A stretch of DNA of 62,680 nt from Planctomycetota bacterium (GTDB lineage Bacteria; Planctomycetota; Planctomycetia; Pirellulales; Pirellulaceae), in the NCBI GenBank assembly GCA_029979005.1, contig JAPOIJ010000006.1:1-62680 (forward strand), written 5' to 3'. The position numbers and the translations under genes were made by a program. Below are positions 55,577-62,680 of the stretch, piece after piece. Positions within the stretch are counted from its first letter, which is position 1; each line of letters begins with the position of its first letter. The notes beneath the pieces are model-generated. The model was not told where the DNA came from. It saw nothing but the letters and a program-made list of their open reading frames with translations, and did no database searches.

Positions 55577-56710
55577 TTACCTGATTTTTGGTAATGCGAG
55601 CGGTTCTGTTGCACTGGCAGGGGGAGATTCTAAGGGCATTTCCAACTTCTCTTCGTTCCCCGTGGCTTTTCGCTTCACGGTGATTCGAATTGTTTCGCCT
55701 GCCTCAAATCGATTGATAAGCTGTTTCAATCGCAGCATATCGTTGACTGGATTGCCGTTAATGCTTAAGAGAATGTCTCCCTCTTTTAATTCCAATCGGC
55801 TCGCAGGAGATTTAGGATTCACCTTGTTCACAAGAATTCCGTCACCCTGTGGATTGGGACCGGATTGAATACCTATAAATGCGGGACGAATATATTCGCC
55901 GGCCTTCAATCGCTCCAAAAGTTCATTCGCATTCGCTAGTGGAATAGCAAAACCAATTCCTGAATCATACCACTCCACCCCCGCTGCCACCGCCTGAGAC
56001 TGAGGATTCATGGGAACGCAAATGCCAAGCACGCGTCCCTCGATATCGACCAGAGGTCCGCCGTAATTGGCGGGACTGATATTAGCGTCGGTTTGAATCG
56101 CACGACCGCCAATTCTATTCTTTGCACTAATGATTCCCGTGGACATTGCTGGACTGGTATCGCCATAACCAACCCCTAGCGAAATTGCCCATTGACCAAC
56201 CTTGATCTTGGACTCATCCAGCATTTCCGGAACGGGTAAATCCGTCTTCCCATCAATTTTTAACAGACAAATTTTTCGGGTATCATCGCGGCCAACGAGT
56301 TTGGCAAAATGACGCTCGCCATCTCCCAGAATAACTGAGATTACAGGCGGTCTTTGAATAAAATTAAATGTGCTTGTAAGAATGTATCCATCTGAAGAAA
56401 TAACGATCCCTGTTGTATTCCCTTCTCCCTGCTTGCGAATACCTCCGATCCGTCCTTGAACTGCTGAAACTCCGCCGTACGATTCAATGGTCACCAAGGA
56501 TGGTGCAACTCGACCAGCCGCTTGGCGAAAAGCCCTAGAGGTAAGCGTCATTGCTTCCATCAACTCCGCTTCTGAAAGTTCAGAAGCCGCCGAGTCAGAT
56601 TCATCAATTTTCCATTGATCGTTGTCGTTTTGACCAAGCGCGAACGCGAATGGATTGAACAACAGCCCCAACAAGCCGCCAACGATCAAATACAAAAATT
56701 TACCAGGCAT
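55577..56710 (-). CDS. HtrA/DegP-like pseudoprotease with PDZ domain, all triad residues lost
   Basis: 377 residues from ATG 56710. A signal peptide covers about 1-26. The S1C trypsin-like fold spans about 60-270 and one PDZ domain about 275-350 (KEGDILLSINGNPVND). Each catalytic residue is replaced: the His of LTNxHV is Phe115 (YILTSTFNFIQ), the Asp of TDLA is Lys146 (DTRKICLLKI) and the nucleophile Ser of GNSGGPL is Tyr216 (SPANYGGPL). Structural glycines are kept, so it probably folds and binds peptides or regulates an active relative rather than cutting. It is the last of three tandem HtrA-like genes. Confidence 0.85.
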   Translation of the reverse strand: MPGKFLYLIVGGLLGLLFNPFAFALGQNDNDQWKIDESDSAASELSEAELMEAMTLTSRAFRQAAGRVAPSLVTIESYGGVSAVQGRIGGIRKQGEGNTTGIVISSDGYILTSTFNFIQRPPVISVILGDGERHFAKLVGRDDTRKICLLKIDGKTDLPVPEMLDESKIKVGQWAISLGVGYGDTSPAMSTGIISAKNRIGGRAIQTDANISPANYGGPLVDIEGRVLGICVPMNPQSQAVAAGVEWYDSGIGFAIPLANANELLERLKAGEYIRPAFIGIQSGPNPQGDGILVNKVNPKSPASRLELKEGDILLSINGNPVNDMLRLKQLINRFEAGETIRITVKRKATGNEEKLEMPLESPPASATEPLALPKIR

Positions 56711-56755
56711 ACACTTCTACTCCATCTACGGGACTCACGTCGCTCTACCGAAGAG

Positions 56756-57772
56756 TCATTTCTTCAAACGCGGAGCAATCCTAACACGCACCATTTCAAC
56801 ACCGCGTTTCACAATCACTAATACCTCCTCCTCAGGGCGTAAGGATTTAAGAGACTCAGCGTAGTCTTTCAAATTGCCAATTTTCTCACCGGCAATCGAT
56901 ACGATCATGTCGTCGCTTTTCAATTTGGCTTGGGCTGCAGGTGATCCGCGAACGACTCGATCGATATAGGCAGGATTATTTCTACCACCAAGCTTGAACA
57001 AGACGATTCCAAATTCAACGTCCTGACGTTCCATAACCGGCTTCGCCTCGCTAGTCACGCTCGCTTTTCCATCTACAAATGCCTGGAGTACTGGGCTCGG
57101 CACGGCATAATTGAGTCGCGTGTTGGTCTCCGAACTATTAATGATCTTGCCTACGATCCCAACCAACTTTCCGTCAGGAGTTACTACCGCGCCACCCGAT
57201 GCCCCAGGATTACTGGTGATCGCATCAATTAGAATCAACTCTCCGCGATAGGCCACATCTCGTTTGGTCAGCCGGGCCTCCATCGTCGTCCGTAATGAAA
57301 TCACGCCCAGCATTGCCGAAACCGGTTCATCTTTATCAGCCACCTTGAACGCGTTACTTAAGGCAATTACCCAGTCTCCCTTTTCACCAACGGATTCTGT
57401 TGAAAGCTCAAAAAAATCAGGAGTATCTGCTTGGATCTTGAGCAACGACAACTGTGTCTCTCGATCACGTTTTAAGATGGTTGCAATATGCTCTGCACCG
57501 TCAGCCAACACCACTTTAACCTGCCTGCCATCGAGAAAAACACCCTGCGAAGAAAGGATTAGCCCGTCCTTCGAGACAATAATCCCGGTCGCAAACCCTT
57601 CTACTTTTCCAGCCGAAGCCCCGAATACCTTGACCATTTTTGGCTGTGACTTCGATATCGCTCGGTCAACAAAACTCGACTGACTTTTCTGCTGTGCCAC
57701 AGCAAGATGGTTGCCGGTTATCTGCAACACACAGCCAACCAAAATTGCTAACCGCCAACCGAATCTATTCAA
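56756..57772 (-). CDS. HtrA/DegP-like degenerate protease with PDZ domain
   Basis: 338 residues from TTG 57772, a start supported by GAGGAG 8 nt upstream. A signal peptide covers about 1-27 (LVGCVLQITGNHLAVAQ). In the protease fold the Ser is kept (S192, NPGASGGAVV), but the His of LTNxHV is Gly77 (LSSQGVFLDG) and the catalytic Asp is Gln107 (RETQLSLLKI). The PDZ domain is at about 240-330 (DDMIVSIAGEKIGN). It cannot be an ordinary serine protease. It lies 45 nt upstream of the fully dead copy and 54 nt downstream of the intact one. Confidence 0.85.
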   Translation of the reverse strand: MNRFGWRLAILVGCVLQITGNHLAVAQQKSQSSFVDRAISKSQPKMVKVFGASAGKVEGFATGIIVSKDGLILSSQGVFLDGRQVKVVLADGAEHIATILKRDRETQLSLLKIQADTPDFFELSTESVGEKGDWVIALSNAFKVADKDEPVSAMLGVISLRTTMEARLTKRDVAYRGELILIDAITSNPGASGGAVVTPDGKLVGIVGKIINSSETNTRLNYAVPSPVLQAFVDGKASVTSEAKPVMERQDVEFGIVLFKLGGRNNPAYIDRVVRGSPAAQAKLKSDDMIVSIAGEKIGNLKDYAESLKSLRPEEEVLVIVKRGVEMVRVRIAPRLKK

Positions 57773-57826
57773 TTTAGTTTCTCCTCAAAACAACCGATGC
57801 GCCCTAAACTATGTTCTTTAAGGCAT

Positions 57827-59662
57827 TCACTTCGTTTGGACATTCGCGTAAAACAAATCATCAGGCACAGTCTTCAGCCACTCGAAATCCGAATCGACTA
57901 CTTGCCGTTCGACACTTTCTTCAAGTCCAAAAACTCTCTGACGTTTGAGCGGCAACTGCACAGGTCCGACCTGTGTCCACGATCCAAAAGTAGTGCCTCC
58001 GCCAATCAGACAGTCTCTCTCAAAAGAGGATTTGACCAAATTAATCGCTGGTTTCCCGTCGAGGTCAAACATGGAAAACCAGCAGTACATTGAGTCACCG
58101 TCGGATGGATCGACTTTAAAGCGATAAGCATTTTCGCCCATTGCTTTATCACTTCCGTCTATCAGGACTTTCCCGAACAAGTCAAACGGCTTCTGCCTGA
58201 AAACAGCGCCCATAATTAATGCCTGATCAAAGCCCCACTTTGACTGTGATTCACGCAAAGACAATTCTGACGTCTTACCTTTCTCGGTCAGCCAAAAAGA
58301 ATTGCCATCGTATTGATAAACAACCAATTGTCCGTCAATGATCTGGTTGACACGAATCCGACCGTCGGAAGCCAGCCAAGTCTCTTGAGTTCCCTTTACT
58401 TTGCCGTCCTCTAAAATTTCACCTGCCAACTTTACGACGCCGATAGAAGATTCTTGATGAATACGCTCTTTCCATTGCTTTAGGATTCGCTGAGCGTAGC
58501 CTCGATTAATTTCTGGATAACGGATGTCACCAGGATTAGCTGACAACAGCGCAATCATCTCTCGCTGCCGTTCCAGTTGCTTCTTTTTTTCCGGATCTTT
58601 CTCCTCTTTCCCCCCCTGTCCGCCACGGGCGCGAGGCTTGGCGTACGGGAGCCCAAACGTCCGCACCACGATTTGATGTTCAGTTCCATCTTGTTTTCGA
58701 ATTAAAAGCTCGGTGGGCCAATCTTCGGGCAATGTACAGATTAAATTGGTAAACTGATTGGCGTTTTTGACCTTCTCTCCTTCGAACTCCAATAACTCAT
58801 CTCCGAGATCAAGCCCCGCTGCTGCGACTGGAGCGTCTCGGTTTAATTTTGAGCAAACAACTTTTCCTCCGCGATCGGAAAAACTCGCATCCAGTGTCGC
58901 ATGCTCCACTAACTTGGTGGCTAACAGATCAGGAATAAAGTTCTTTATTTGGTTCGCAGAAATAGCGTAGCCCAATCCAACATTCACCCGCCCCCGTTCC
59001 TTAAAACTCCCTCGTCCATTAATTCCAATCACTTCGCCATTGAAATTGAATAACGGACCGCCGGAATTTCCCGGATTGATCGATGAGTCCACCTGGATGC
59101 AGTTACCGTAAACCAGTTGATTCTGCCCCGCTCCCGGTTGATAGCGCTTCACGCCACTTACAATTCCCAGCGTAACAGTAGGAACTTGATCTTCGGTCAA
59201 TATAAAAGGATTCCCCATAGCCAGAGCCCAATCGCCAACTTTGACTTTATCGGAGTCCCCGAGAGGAGTTGCGGGAAAGACGGACTTACCTTCCAGTTGA
59301 ATGATGGCGAGATCCCCGCCCGGATCCGTTCCGATCAATTTCCACTTGTACAACTCGCCATCAGCAAGGCCACCCCATCCTTTCACACCCGCCCCCATGA
59401 TGACATGGTGGTTGGTTAAAACGATACCGCTGGAATCGATAATCACACCCGAACCACCGCCCTGGCGATCTTCGTCATAGATGGCAACGACACTTTGGAT
59501 CACTCGATTAATCGCTTGAATCCGGTAACGCTCAATCGCTGCGACGCGCTGTCGGTCCTGCAGACTCAAATCGTCGTCAGCACTCAGGTAGCAAAGGGGA
59601 GCAATTAAAATGCACACGAGCCAATAAAAAACAATATGAACCTCGATGTGCTGCTTGATCAT
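57827..59662 (-). CDS. HtrA/DegP-like serine protease with complete triad and long C-terminus
   Basis: 611 residues from ATG 59662; an in-frame TTG upstream would add 8 residues. After a signal peptide (residues about 5-27) comes the trypsin-like domain with His about 86 (VLTNHHVIMG), Asp about 117 (DPGGDLAIIQLEG) and Ser about 200 (DSSINPGNSGGPLFNFNGEV), all correct for HtrA. A PDZ domain follows (GDELLEFEGEKVKNANQ). Residues about 345-611 are unusual for an HtrA: a Lys/Glu-rich linker, then a beta-rich segment (LVVYQYDGNSFWLTEKGKTS) not recognised. It probably degrades or chaperones envelope proteins and is the most upstream and only intact member of the trio. Confidence 0.88.
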   Translation of the reverse strand: MIKQHIEVHIVFYWLVCILIAPLCYLSADDDLSLQDRQRVAAIERYRIQAINRVIQSVVAIYDEDRQGGGSGVIIDSSGIVLTNHHVIMGAGVKGWGGLADGELYKWKLIGTDPGGDLAIIQLEGKSVFPATPLGDSDKVKVGDWALAMGNPFILTEDQVPTVTLGIVSGVKRYQPGAGQNQLVYGNCIQVDSSINPGNSGGPLFNFNGEVIGINGRGSFKERGRVNVGLGYAISANQIKNFIPDLLATKLVEHATLDASFSDRGGKVVCSKLNRDAPVAAAGLDLGDELLEFEGEKVKNANQFTNLICTLPEDWPTELLIRKQDGTEHQIVVRTFGLPYAKPRARGGQGGKEEKDPEKKKQLERQREMIALLSANPGDIRYPEINRGYAQRILKQWKERIHQESSIGVVKLAGEILEDGKVKGTQETWLASDGRIRVNQIIDGQLVVYQYDGNSFWLTEKGKTSELSLRESQSKWGFDQALIMGAVFRQKPFDLFGKVLIDGSDKAMGENAYRFKVDPSDGDSMYCWFSMFDLDGKPAINLVKSSFERDCLIGGGTTFGSWTQVGPVQLPLKRQRVFGLEESVERQVVDSDFEWLKTVPDDLFYANVQTK

Positions 59663-59747
59663 AATTTCACTTATCCATAAAGCCAATTGCTCATTTCACC
59701 AAGATTCGATGAACTAACTTTCAAATGATCGGAGAGTGCAATTAACC

Positions 59748-61049
59748 CTATTTAGTTTTTAAAAACCGCGCTTCGCCCCAGTTGGCATGATCGCCCAAAT
59801 CAAACTCTGCTCCAGGAGACACCACCAGAACGATCTCCTTAATCCCCTCAATATCAACATCTATTTCCAAGGGACCTCCACCGCCGGTCACTCGTTCAGA
59901 CCAGAGTTCGATTCCATCTCCACGAACAATCATTTGGCAATCACCGCGCCCATTGGTTTCAGCGGCAATCCCGGCGACCGCAGAGAATCGGTCAAAACCT
60001 GATTCATTTGCAAATACCAGCCTTGACGAGGCCTGCACACCTAATCCTTTTTTGAATGTCCTGACTTCCTCAGAATCCTTAAGTCGTATCTCAAGTGGAT
60101 TACCAGCAACACTCAAGTTCCTTCTCCAGGGCCGTTGAAAGGCAAAGACCGCCTTCTCTTGAACCTCAAGCGGTTCCTGATCGGAGAGATACCTCATCCG
60201 ATCTGACTTAATCGTGATCGAACTAATGTTACCCGCCAAAACTTCAACCGTATTTCCGGCTGCGACTCCCACTTGGAAAACTCCACCCTCCAGTTCGAGG
60301 ATTTCACCAACCATTCGAGAACCATCGACCAGCTGGGTCAAAGCAATCGTACCTGTTGGTTTTTCAAGGCCTAGATCAGCCGTGATAATTGCTTTCACTT
60401 TCTCAAGACCAATCTTCTTCGACTCACCCTTGTACTCAAGCCTCACAAACTCCGAATCAACCGCTTCCAGTATCCCCTCAACCATCCTCTCGCCCGAGGA
60501 GGTGTTTACGACCACGGCATCGAAGTCAGCAGAGGGATTTTTAATTTTTCGATCGACCAGGGGCGAATTCGTCCACACAATTGCACGTAACAATTCGAGC
60601 GGCAGTTCGCGCGATTTTAGAGACGAAACCAATTCAAGATTTTCATCCTCCATCGAAACGGAGCTTACCCATAATTCTCCTCCCCCAACCAATTTTAAAT
60701 TAGGACCATCAGCCGGAGTGTCGCTAATTTTCCTTGCGGTATTGATGGATAGCACCTGCTGGACATTTAAGCCTGGCGGTAATTTATCTCCCTCAATCTC
60801 GCCCCCCGATGCAATCGCCTTGATCGCGGAATTGATGGTTGTGCCATTAATCAATTCGATAGACACTTGGCCCAAATCGTTTTCCTGCGTCGATGCCATT
60901 GCAGGAGCAACAAGCCAATTTCCGTGGAAGCCTTCTGACGAAATAAAATCACCTAGGCAAATACCAACCAGAATCACTGTCCAAGTCAGCAACTTACTGG
61001 AAGAAAAAAAACAGCCGTTCAGATTATTGTTTTGCAGTCGAACCTTCAT
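59748..61049 (-). CDS. Secreted protein with C-terminal NPCBM domain
   Basis: 433 residues from ATG 61049; an upstream GTG at 61067 would add six residues. The signal sequence is TWTVILVGICLGDFISSEG. Residues about 70-280 contain beta strands with repeated VxxxxGE and LVDGSRMVGEILEL-like units. The final 150 residues match the NPCBM (putative carbohydrate-binding) family pattern: LRYL-type entry, FDRFSAVAGI, GRGDCQMIVRGDGIELW and VSPGAEFDLGDHANWGEARFL. It probably binds glycans outside the cell. It follows the terminator of the TPR gene and starts about 86 nt before the HtrA gene, so it likely heads the HtrA transcript. Confidence 0.78.
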   Translation of the reverse strand: MKVRLQNNNLNGCFFSSSKLLTWTVILVGICLGDFISSEGFHGNWLVAPAMASTQENDLGQVSIELINGTTINSAIKAIASGGEIEGDKLPPGLNVQQVLSINTARKISDTPADGPNLKLVGGGELWVSSVSMEDENLELVSSLKSRELPLELLRAIVWTNSPLVDRKIKNPSADFDAVVVNTSSGERMVEGILEAVDSEFVRLEYKGESKKIGLEKVKAIITADLGLEKPTGTIALTQLVDGSRMVGEILELEGGVFQVGVAAGNTVEVLAGNISSITIKSDRMRYLSDQEPLEVQEKAVFAFQRPWRRNLSVAGNPLEIRLKDSEEVRTFKKGLGVQASSRLVFANESGFDRFSAVAGIAAETNGRGDCQMIVRGDGIELWSERVTGGGGPLEIDVDIEGIKEIVLVVSPGAEFDLGDHANWGEARFLKTK

Positions 61050-61107
61050 GCCGTTATTGTATCTCACAACCGGTTAAATGTCTTGAGAGCAAGAGACCAA
61101 GACGCAA

Positions 61108-61142
61108 TAAAAAACGGCACTCCCCACATTGGGCAGTGCCGT
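61108..61142 (-). terminator. Strong intrinsic terminator after the TPR gene
   Basis: The minus strand forms ACGGCACT-GCCC, loop AATGT, then GGGG-AGTGCCGT, an 8-bp perfect stem extended by further pairs, then TTTTTTATT. It starts 31 nt downstream of the TAA at 61173-61175, and about 300 nt after the in-frame TGA at 61440. Confidence 0.9.
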
Positions 61143-61172
61143 ATTAGTTATTTCAACTGACTAAAATGGCAG

Positions 61173-62243
61173 TTACTTTTCACCTTCGCCATTCGCTGCC
61201 TCAGTGTATCTTTCGACAATGTCACGATACCTCGCAGGTAATTTTTCCTTTACAGCGTTGTTCGCCGGATCTCGACTGCGATCTCTCAGCCGACTCCAAG
61301 GACTCGCTGGAGAATCATCGTACGACTTTTTTACAACCTGGCCATTGGGATTACTACTCGAACCACCCTTTTGGCTTTTCTTACTTTGGCTTGGCTTCGA
61401 CTGAGCTTGCTTCTGACCAGAAGCTTTTTTACTCGCCTCTCAGGTACCGCCTTGTTTACAGTTTGAACTAACCTCTTTTTTCTCTTCCTCTTTGATAAGT
61501 TTCGTCAGCATATTGACGATTTTATCCTGCTCTACTTGCGTAACCTCATCGGTTTCCACCAATTCTAAACGCCGACGCGAGTAATCCATCCTCTGGTAAA
61601 TATCATCTAGTTTACCTTTCTGAATCGATTGAATTTGCTGAACTTGCCGCCAAGCGCTCACACGCAGGCGTTCAGGGGCATTCGGATTGAACTGTAGGAA
61701 TCGCATCAACGATTCAATGGCTTCCTGATTCTTTAACAATCCCGCTTGGGCAACTCCGAGATAATACTGAGCACTACCCTGATGGACTGTGTAACCGCTG
61801 AGATCACCAACCAAATTCTCTAAACATGGCATGGCTTCCTCAAAACGCTCCTCATTCATTAACGTTCTTGCGAGGTAAAAACTTGCGTCCCCGGCTAAAT
61901 ATTTATCGTCAGACTTCTGCAATGGCGAAAGAAGCTCAATGGCTTGTTCGTATCCACCATTTACATCTGATGCTGAAATCGCATCTGAATATTTTGGGTA
62001 CATCAAAATAAGCGACTCAGTCAGAGCGTCCGAGAAATCACTATCCGTTGCAGAAACTGTTTCTTTAATCGCCGCCTTTTGCGAATCGGGAACAGACTCC
62101 AGAGAGTTGATATGCTCTAGAAAAGATGTCTTGACCTTTTCTGAATGCTGGTCGTTTGCTTCTACCGAATTCGTCGCCCCGACGAACATACCACCCATCG
62201 CCAACAGGCCGAGTGCGGTTTGGAATAATCGTCCAATTCTCAT
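61173..62243 (-). CDS. Secreted TPR protein with in-frame TGA (candidate selenoprotein)
   Basis: ATG 62243 is preceded by AAGGTG 8 nt upstream; an earlier in-frame opening at 62282 would add a poor N-terminus. A signal peptide covers about 1-30 (TALGLLAMGGMFVGATNS). TPR-like helices follow at about 90-225 (FYLARTLMNEERFEEAMP and QYYLGVAQAGLLKNQEAI). Codon 268 is TGA (61440-61442), preceded five residues earlier by a Cys (NCKQGGT). The frame then continues for 88 codons: a Lys/Ser/Gln-rich linker and a conserved-looking end (PWSRLRDRSRDP, KLPARYRDIVERYTEAA), to TAA at 61173. A SECIS-like hairpin follows the TGA. It may encode a 356-residue selenoprotein; if the TGA is a true stop, the product is 267 residues. 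No Sec machinery lies in this window. Confidence 0.75.
61403..61442 (-). promoter_or_regulatory. SECIS-like hairpin after an in-frame UGA
   Basis: The minus-strand RNA reads UGA (61442-61440), 21 nt, then a hairpin with stem GCUUCU/AGAAGC (6 bp) and tetraloop GGUC (61418-61415). A lower stem GAGU/GCUC (61434-61431 with 61406-61403) can also pair. A G-rich GGU apical loop about 16-37 nt from the UGA is the known bacterial SECIS pattern, as in E. coli fdhF. Confidence 0.6.
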
Positions 62244-62428
62244 TTCAATCACCTTAAGGATTTCGCAAGCGTTAATACGCAATTTGAAACATCTTCTATC
62301 TCATATTATTCAACAAAAGGCCACCGAGACCATCACCTTAAACTCGAAAAAACCCGATTCAGCCACGAAAATCAGCTTTTGCAGCAATTTAAAACGGTTT
62401 TTCCGCCCTAATCATAGAACCCCGGAAA

Positions 62429-62680
62429 CTACCGTTCGTTCTCTTTTTCCATGATTCGCTCGGTCATTTCCAGTAATTTAGCTTGCAATTCCGCTGCATT
62501 CATCGCCTCTTGGTCCAACAACTTCTCCAATCCCTCCTGTCCACGCAATTGCTCAACTTTTTTCGTCCGCCGGTTGAGCCTCATCTGTTGAATCCTTAAC
62601 ACTTTTAGCTCCGCGGATTTTTTCAGCAAGGGTTGATCGCCCCCGCCTCCACCGCCACCTCCGCCGCCGCCACCGCCGCC
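62429..62680 (-). CDS. Poly-glycine / coiled-coil protein (5' end outside window)
   Basis: Only the C-terminal 83 codons are visible, ending at TAG 62429. The frame enters from the right edge with at least 14 consecutive Gly codons, then DQPLLKKSAELKVLRIQQMR and a heptad-rich helix (EGLEKLLDQEAMNAAELQAK). The Gly tract mixes all four Gly codons, so it is a selected low-complexity linker, not a simple repeat error. Its stop is 185 nt from the TPR gene start on the same strand. The pair resembles a conserved planctomycete envelope gene pair, although the function is unknown to me. Confidence 0.7.
   Translation of the reverse strand, partial: GGGGGGGGGGGGGGDQPLLKKSAELKVLRIQQMRLNRRTKKVEQLRGQEGLEKLLDQEAMNAAELQAKLLEMTERIMEKENER

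Follow-up and report, generated by a model that had tools for sequence, protein, structure and literature searches.

Is the TGA triplet that interrupts a gene for a predicted exported TPR protein in this planctomycete read as selenocysteine (Sec), and what would such a residue do there? Its genome (G000) comprises 5.06 Mb in 322 contigs, the gene being on contig C185, and is closest, among named records, to Mariniblastus sp., Planctomycetaceae and uncultured Pirellulaceae MAGs. We analysed a stretch of 62,680 nucleotides, here called the window. On its minus strand we confirmed the frame reported in a preliminary description of this DNA, in which an in-frame TGA at 61440-61442 is followed by 88 sense codons up to the TAA at 61173. 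A standard-code ORF caller stops this protein at residue 267. The gene has the following features:

61173-62243, minus strand: predicted selenoprotein gene for an exported TPR protein of 356 residues with Sec268 (ATG at 62243, TAA stop at 61173-61175)
62154-62243, minus strand: probable signal peptide, about residues 1-30 (hydropathy)
61662-61964, minus strand: TPR-like repeats, about residues 94-194 (weak matches to Pfam TPR and to NCBIfam MamA/YbgF/BamD)
61440-61442, minus strand: TGA codon 268, very probably read as selenocysteine (in-frame TGA kept in 12 genomes; Sec machinery present)
61409-61424, minus strand: SECIS-like hairpin GCUUCU-GGUC-AGAAGC, loop at 61415-61418 (conservation, covariation, folding)
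61176-61316, minus strand: conserved, helical-looking C-terminal tail past the linker, residues 310-356 (invariant columns, dN/dS)
61109-61142, minus strand: intrinsic-terminator-like stem-loop 3' of the TAA (read from the sequence)

The highest 15-residue hydropathy is found around residues 6-24, with nothing similar past residue 35. All matches to the TPR part, from Pfam TPR as well as NCBIfam MamA/YbgF/BamD, lie under their curated cut-offs. Where the earlier account had placed a strong terminator, we indeed read a stem-loop with a T-run (CGGCACT...AGTGCCG, then TTTTTT) that begins 31 nt past the TAA. It is absent from the list of a consensus terminator scanner, probably because the scanner accepts loops of up to 8 nt and this one has 13. 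An Rfam scan of 60900-62680 returned a single match, far under its cut-off.

Conservation of the TGA codon and of the frame beyond it

We compared the gene with its relatives at three taxonomic depths. Among 28 genomes searched in the genus, 26 carry the gene, and 10 of these have the in-frame TGA together with the tail. The same TGA and tail recur in G044 and G062, both from one other family, bringing the total to 12 genomes. In an order-wide draw, 146 of 396 genomes matched the gene profile at 1e-20, and TGA codons were flagged outside the genus in G044, G062 and G360. We rejected G360 as a carrier, as there the TGA is the usual stop at the end of the gene and the linker has CSSC. A phylum-wide draw gave matches at 1e-40 in 15 of 392 genomes and one further TGA, in the distant planctomycete G557 (locus L128). 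There the TGA lies inside a poly-Gly linker and has no neighbouring Cys, an 8-bp hairpin follows downstream, and the genome contains tRNA-Sec and SelB. It is possible that this codon represents a third Sec lineage, or else a single-base error; as a single GC-rich case it was kept out of the 12 TGA genomes.

The tail after the TGA is under protein-level selection. Past the TGA, five close pairs with a dS of 0.55-1.09 have a dN/dS of 0.01-0.03, and a sixth pair, whose dS of 2.4 is near saturation, has 0.03; the ratio could be computed in these 6 of 10 pairs, dS being saturated in the other 4. Trp-316, Arg-320, Arg-324, Pro-336, Tyr-339 and Tyr-346 are invariant in the alignment, and the tail is present in all 19 TGA-free homologues examined. 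The preliminary description had raised the concerns that the TGA might be missing from all close relatives and that homologues might end at this point. Our comparisons settle both, with the TGA kept in close and distant relatives and the tail aligning as homologous among Sec-containing, Cys-containing and thiol-free members.

The downstream hairpin and the selenocysteine machinery

A perfect 6-bp hairpin with a GGUC loop had been reported 21 nt past the TGA. The hairpin is there, but the 21 nt measure the distance to its loop, the stem starting at 15 nt; in G004 the spacing is 3 nt shorter (18 nt to the loop) and the hairpin unchanged. A published bSECIS model allows a loop of 3-9 nt, a stem of 4-16 bp, a G in the first two loop positions and a UGA-loop distance of 16-37 nt, and sets a free-energy limit of -7.5 kcal/mol or lower, as outlined in PMC13188914. 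The Sec268 hairpin (GGUC, 6 bp, 21 nt) has this geometry. As a chance control we scored the best hairpin for every TGA triplet of the window, 2519 on the two strands together, and found that 907 have a hairpin of at least 4 bp within these loose limits. A stem of at least 6 bp was found for 177 of the 2519, and a stem of at least 6 bp with a GGTC loop for only one, the Sec268 hairpin itself. With 907 matches against a single one, a SECIS-like hairpin alone means little, whereas the Sec268 hairpin is rare.

The hairpin is under selection as RNA. Its sequence is identical in all 10 TGA-bearing genes of the genus, and codons +5 to +10 past the TGA show zero synonymous variation in 8 representatives, compared with a gene mean of 0.48 (L009 and L011 were omitted from the 10 genes as near-copies). 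Only 2 of 307 overlapping scan intervals are equally low, and both lie at the hairpin. In G044 and G062 the stem has changed to GGCUCC/GGGGCC, and the loop is still GGUC. Across seven distinct rows, three of the six pairs change on both sides, one changes on one side and two are invariant; G004, with its differing spacing, was omitted from this count. Paired cells reach 100%, compared with 33-55% for slid versions of the hairpin, and none of 500 shuffles reaches 100%, although three both-side changes are also reached by 48 of 500 shuffles of the seven rows. This covariation amounts to a single comparison, of one lineage with the other. Among 17 TGA-free relatives, tested at two positions, none has a fitting stem of at least 5 bp, and two (L019 and L022) have 4-bp hairpins that fit the loose model. 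The worry that relatives might lack a conserved hairpin is hence not borne out, as the hairpin is both conserved and covarying.

RNA folding, which the preliminary description had proposed as a check, gave a divided answer. The hairpin forms in the 54-nt minimum-energy folds of 9 of 11 TGA genes (not in L014 or L015), but the full 59-nt stretch shows no folding advantage over shuffled sequence (z 0.56, with 137 of 200 shuffles equalling or surpassing it). Set against the limit of -7.5 kcal/mol, we calculated -7.1 kcal/mol for the bare hairpin (35 nt), -11.8 kcal/mol for 59 nt and -13.4 kcal/mol in G044. The evidence that the hairpin provides is one of conservation, not of stability.

The search for Sec genes in the same genome, another proposed check, was positive for all four: G000 contains selC (67.4 bits; called tRNA-SeC(tca) by ARAGORN), selB (wing domain, 70 bits), selA (481 bits) and selD (259 bits). 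The tRNA-Sec search is loose, matching 14 of 14 control genomes and 5 of 14 over the 47-bit cut-off, and we therefore counted only matches of 66.7-69.9 bits, which are present in 10 of the 12 TGA genomes. The two exceptions are G021, with no selC over the cut-off, and G004. SelB is found in 11 of 12 (not in G004). Among the 11 TGA genomes searched for SelA (G062 not among them), seven have a full-length gene, G021 has a fragment at a contig edge, and none was found in G003, G018 and G004. G004 thus has the TGA and the hairpin, yet neither selA, selB nor an over-cut-off selC was found in it. This assembly is 80% complete and contains a TGA-bearing formate dehydrogenase, and it is therefore likely that the gaps reflect missing contigs.

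The formate dehydrogenase alpha subunit offers an internal reference. In G000 (L161, on contig C305), G004 (L162) and G017 (L163) it has a TGA in the motif CAATUHAPTVAGL, followed by a 6-bp hairpin with the loop GGUCU. G025 and G014 also have a TGA in the matching formate dehydrogenase frame, but encode a Cys form of the TPR protein; the machinery alone hence does not put Sec into the TPR protein.

We consider it very likely, from comparative sequence evidence, that codon 268 is decoded as Sec. The earlier proposal of a Sec codon in a Sec-containing family is well supported by the conservation of TGA and tail, by the conservation and covariation of the hairpin, and by the Sec genes. A nonsense mutation, a pseudogene or a sequencing error, which had been regarded as the main rival, might be suspected in a window that is one contig of a 322-contig assembly, but is excluded for the family by the same TGA in 12 genomes and the dN/dS of 0.01-0.03 past it, and has only a minimal probability. 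Programmed read-through of the stop by an ordinary near-cognate tRNA would need no selenium and would yield a short and a long product. Such a mechanism could account for the tail, whose conservation shows translation alone, and for the lack of detectable selA, selB and selC in G004. It is nevertheless very improbable, given a hairpin that has zero synonymous drift and has kept its pairing in a second lineage, a loop nearly matching that of formate dehydrogenase in the same genome, relatives with Cys near the equivalent place, and a complete Sec machinery. Should TGA be a sense codon throughout the genome, ordinary TGA stops would not be expected, but the window contains 10 further ORFs of 200 aa or more that terminate at TGA. 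Nine of them extend 0-68 codons past it, and the tenth frame is open for at least 300 codons, but the ATG of a separate ORF lies at its third codon. We rejected code reassignment on the basis of these stops; the presence of SelB and tRNA-Sec also speaks against it, leaving it with virtually no probability.

A thiol or selenol in the linker

The preferred reading, Sec at position 268, places the residue in a linker that directly follows a helix ending in KKE. Two codons upstream of the TGA are relevant here:

61458-61460, minus strand: Cys262 codon, the nearest thiol upstream of Sec (in 9 of 10 TGA-bearing genus members)
61470-61472, minus strand: codon 258, encoding Val in G000 (Cys in the remaining 9 TGA-bearing members of the genus)

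A Cys had been placed five residues before the TGA; Cys262 in fact lies six positions before it, with five residues in between. The linker reads CSSNCK[KQ]GGTU in 8 of the 10 genus members with the TGA, and VSSNCKQGGTU in G000. Val258 is found in G000 even though its 98%-identical neighbour G019 has the first Cys of the motif. Other Sec forms are CSTU in G004 and GCGTU in G044 and G062, whereas linkers of relatives contain CSSC, CSNC, CSGSCKNC (in G025, G015 and G014), CNC or no thiol. A direct replacement of Sec by Cys is seen when KKECSSC is compared with KKECSTU; in the longer C-x3-C-x5-U form, the alignment puts no Cys exactly opposite Sec. CxxU occurs in three relatives, and two-thiol CxxC and CxxU forms recur. 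Sec thus falls in a linker and not in a known catalytic fold, as the preliminary description had stated, with the refinement that this linker has a recurrent CxxC-like motif in many relatives. In 10 of 18 rows (one incomplete) any Cys is confined to the signal-peptide region and the linker; further Cys residues among the 18 are Cys140 in the six closest Mariniblastus rows and one more in L074 and L101. The distant homologues L129 and L140 have Cys-rich linkers at the same place, CGNCKGCKGSC and CKKCKGKGCKSC, the latter of which we take to resemble the zinc repeats of DnaJ.

We mapped the linker states onto a tree of 42 rows that was built without the linker. Its rows are the 30 first-search loci minus L024, L028, L036 and L037, plus 4 named-record loci and 12 order-wide loci, with L107-L111 and the phylum-wide loci excluded. 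L081 is an exact reverse complement of 600 bases of L103 and does not represent a separate genome. Twelve rows have Sec, 14 have Cys and 16 are thiol-free, one Cys gene probably being counted twice (L074 and L095, zero branch length). The Sec state needs two changes on this tree, and two gains of Sec are likely, with some branches long and weakly supported. The thiol-free rows (16 of 42) include at least one, G005, with full Sec machinery, and the linker residue is therefore dispensable there. It is likely that the alternation of Cys and Sec marks the linker thiol as a functional residue.

In the mechanism that we propose, SelB with tRNA-Sec would bind the GGUC-loop hairpin just downstream of the UGA, and the ribosome would insert Sec268 and complete the 356-residue protein. 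The product would consist of a signal peptide, a TPR-like domain, a low-complexity linker with its thiol or selenol, and the short conserved, helical-looking C-terminal tail, and is predicted to be exported. Sec and the nearby Cys (CxxU, or C-x3-C-x5-U in 8 of 10 genus TGA members) may act as redox partners on a flexible arm, which could reduce partner thiols outside the cytoplasm, or sense their oxidation, in the service of a MoxR/DUF58/BatA/VWA cluster.

Sec is used mainly in redox catalysis. A redox role for the linker, rather than metal binding, appears somewhat the better supported by the motif, because two-thiol CxxC and CxxU forms recur. An arm in which Sec is inserted but binds soft metals (Cu, Zn, Hg) would better suit the Cys-rich linkers at the same place, CSGSCKNC in G025, G015 and G014 and the two longer ones of L129 and L140, but sits less well with the recurrent two-thiol forms and with the usual employment of Sec, and we regard it as a less probable function. 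The UGA could also serve as a selenium-dependent switch, the tail being attached when selenium is available and the TPR domain ending at residue 267 when it is not. Such a switch follows from Sec decoding in general, and the tail does form a separate conserved block. There is, however, no sign that a short form is in use, with the tail present in 19 of 19 TGA-free homologues, and we consider the switch unlikely.

Relation to known selenoproteins and to Bat operons

We compared the Sec268 system with known SelB/bSECIS selenoproteins such as formate dehydrogenase. It shares with them the UGA, a hairpin with a G-rich apical loop 18-21 nt downstream, selA, selB, selC and selD in the genome, Cys homologues and, in the formate dehydrogenase of its own genome, a nearly identical loop (GGUCU). 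The decoding is canonical, and the protein therefore belongs to a known kind of selenoprotein. Its setting is unusual, as Sec is located in the low-complexity linker of an exported TPR protein. By sequence, we found no known redox or catalytic fold and no described selenoprotein family, only weak and mostly TPR matches in Pfam, NCBIfam and PDB sequences. Sec genes and selenoproteins have been reported for planctomycetes (PMC4807772), and the Global Ocean Sampling study described the selenoproteins GOS_A, GOS_B and a secreted serine protease MucD with a CxxU motif (PMC2398784). Like the Sec-TPR protein, GOS_A and GOS_B are marine selenoproteins of unknown function (PMC2398784). In the literature searched on planctomycete, TPR or Bat selenoproteins, apart from the sequences of GOS_A and GOS_B and the candidate table of PMC4807772, no such family is described, and a word search of two reviews and the deep-Sep paper gave no mention of TPR or planctomycetes. 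The Sec-TPR protein represents what seems to be a selenoprotein family without an earlier description, leaving aside the 2008 marine GOS_A and GOS_B.

The neighbouring genes in the window are the following:

62429-62680, minus strand: end of the upstream gene, poly-Gly then a helical-looking end, cut by the contig edge (whole in G017, L147:2843-4819)
59748-61067, minus strand: downstream NPCBM-domain protein (Pfam; same place in G017, by eye, and in G044)
57827-59686, minus strand: downstream trypsin-like/PDZ protease (Pfam)

The poly-Gly stretch of the upstream gene comprises 14 Gly, and its full-length counterpart in G017 (658 aa) has no Pfam or NCBIfam match. G017 encodes a Sec-TPR protein that is about 90% identical over 267 residues, in the gene order MoxR-DUF58-BatA-PQQ/TPR-VWA-two genes without Pfam matches-TPR(Sec) (L147), followed, by eye, by an NPCBM-like and three protease-like ORFs. 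As in the Bat (Bacteroides aerotolerance) operon, MoxR, DUF58, BatA (PF07584) and VWA genes stand beside a TPR gene in G017; the window contig ends before them. Unlike a Bat operon, the cluster has no match to a BatD model among the 8 G017 proteins scanned at E 0.001, and contains extra PQQ/TPR, poly-Gly, NPCBM and protease genes. G044 keeps the NPCBM gene and the three proteases downstream, and none of its four upstream ORFs scanned matches MoxR, DUF58, BatA or VWA.

According to an earlier proposal, Bat proteins reduce damaged proteins in the periplasm or export reducing power to it, and a Leptospira bat deletion gave no oxidative-stress phenotype (PMC3557215). Because of the latter result, a Bat-linked redox step is something that we infer, and a functional tie of the Sec-TPR protein to a Bat-like complex is a tentative suggestion. 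It is conceivable, though doubtful at present, that in these planctomycetes the TPR subunit of the MoxR/BatA/VWA envelope machinery bears a dedicated selenothiol on a flexible arm. This selenothiol would apparently have been gained twice, in a position occupied elsewhere by CxxC. If this holds, genomic data would directly back the old idea of Bat systems as handlers of reducing equivalents beyond the cytoplasm. The predicted Sec268 itself lies outside every redox fold that sequence comparison recognises, and the gene for the predicted exported scaffold protein that carries it adjoins a Bat-like cluster in the sister genome G017. The alternation of Cys and Sec makes a redox role of Bat-like clusters directly testable.

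Past the NPCBM gene, three protease-like ORFs stand in a row at 55577-59686, Pfam having been run on the first. In contrast to the MucD selenoprotein with its CxxU motif, as described in PMC2398784, these ORFs end at TAA or extend 2 and 6 codons past a TGA.
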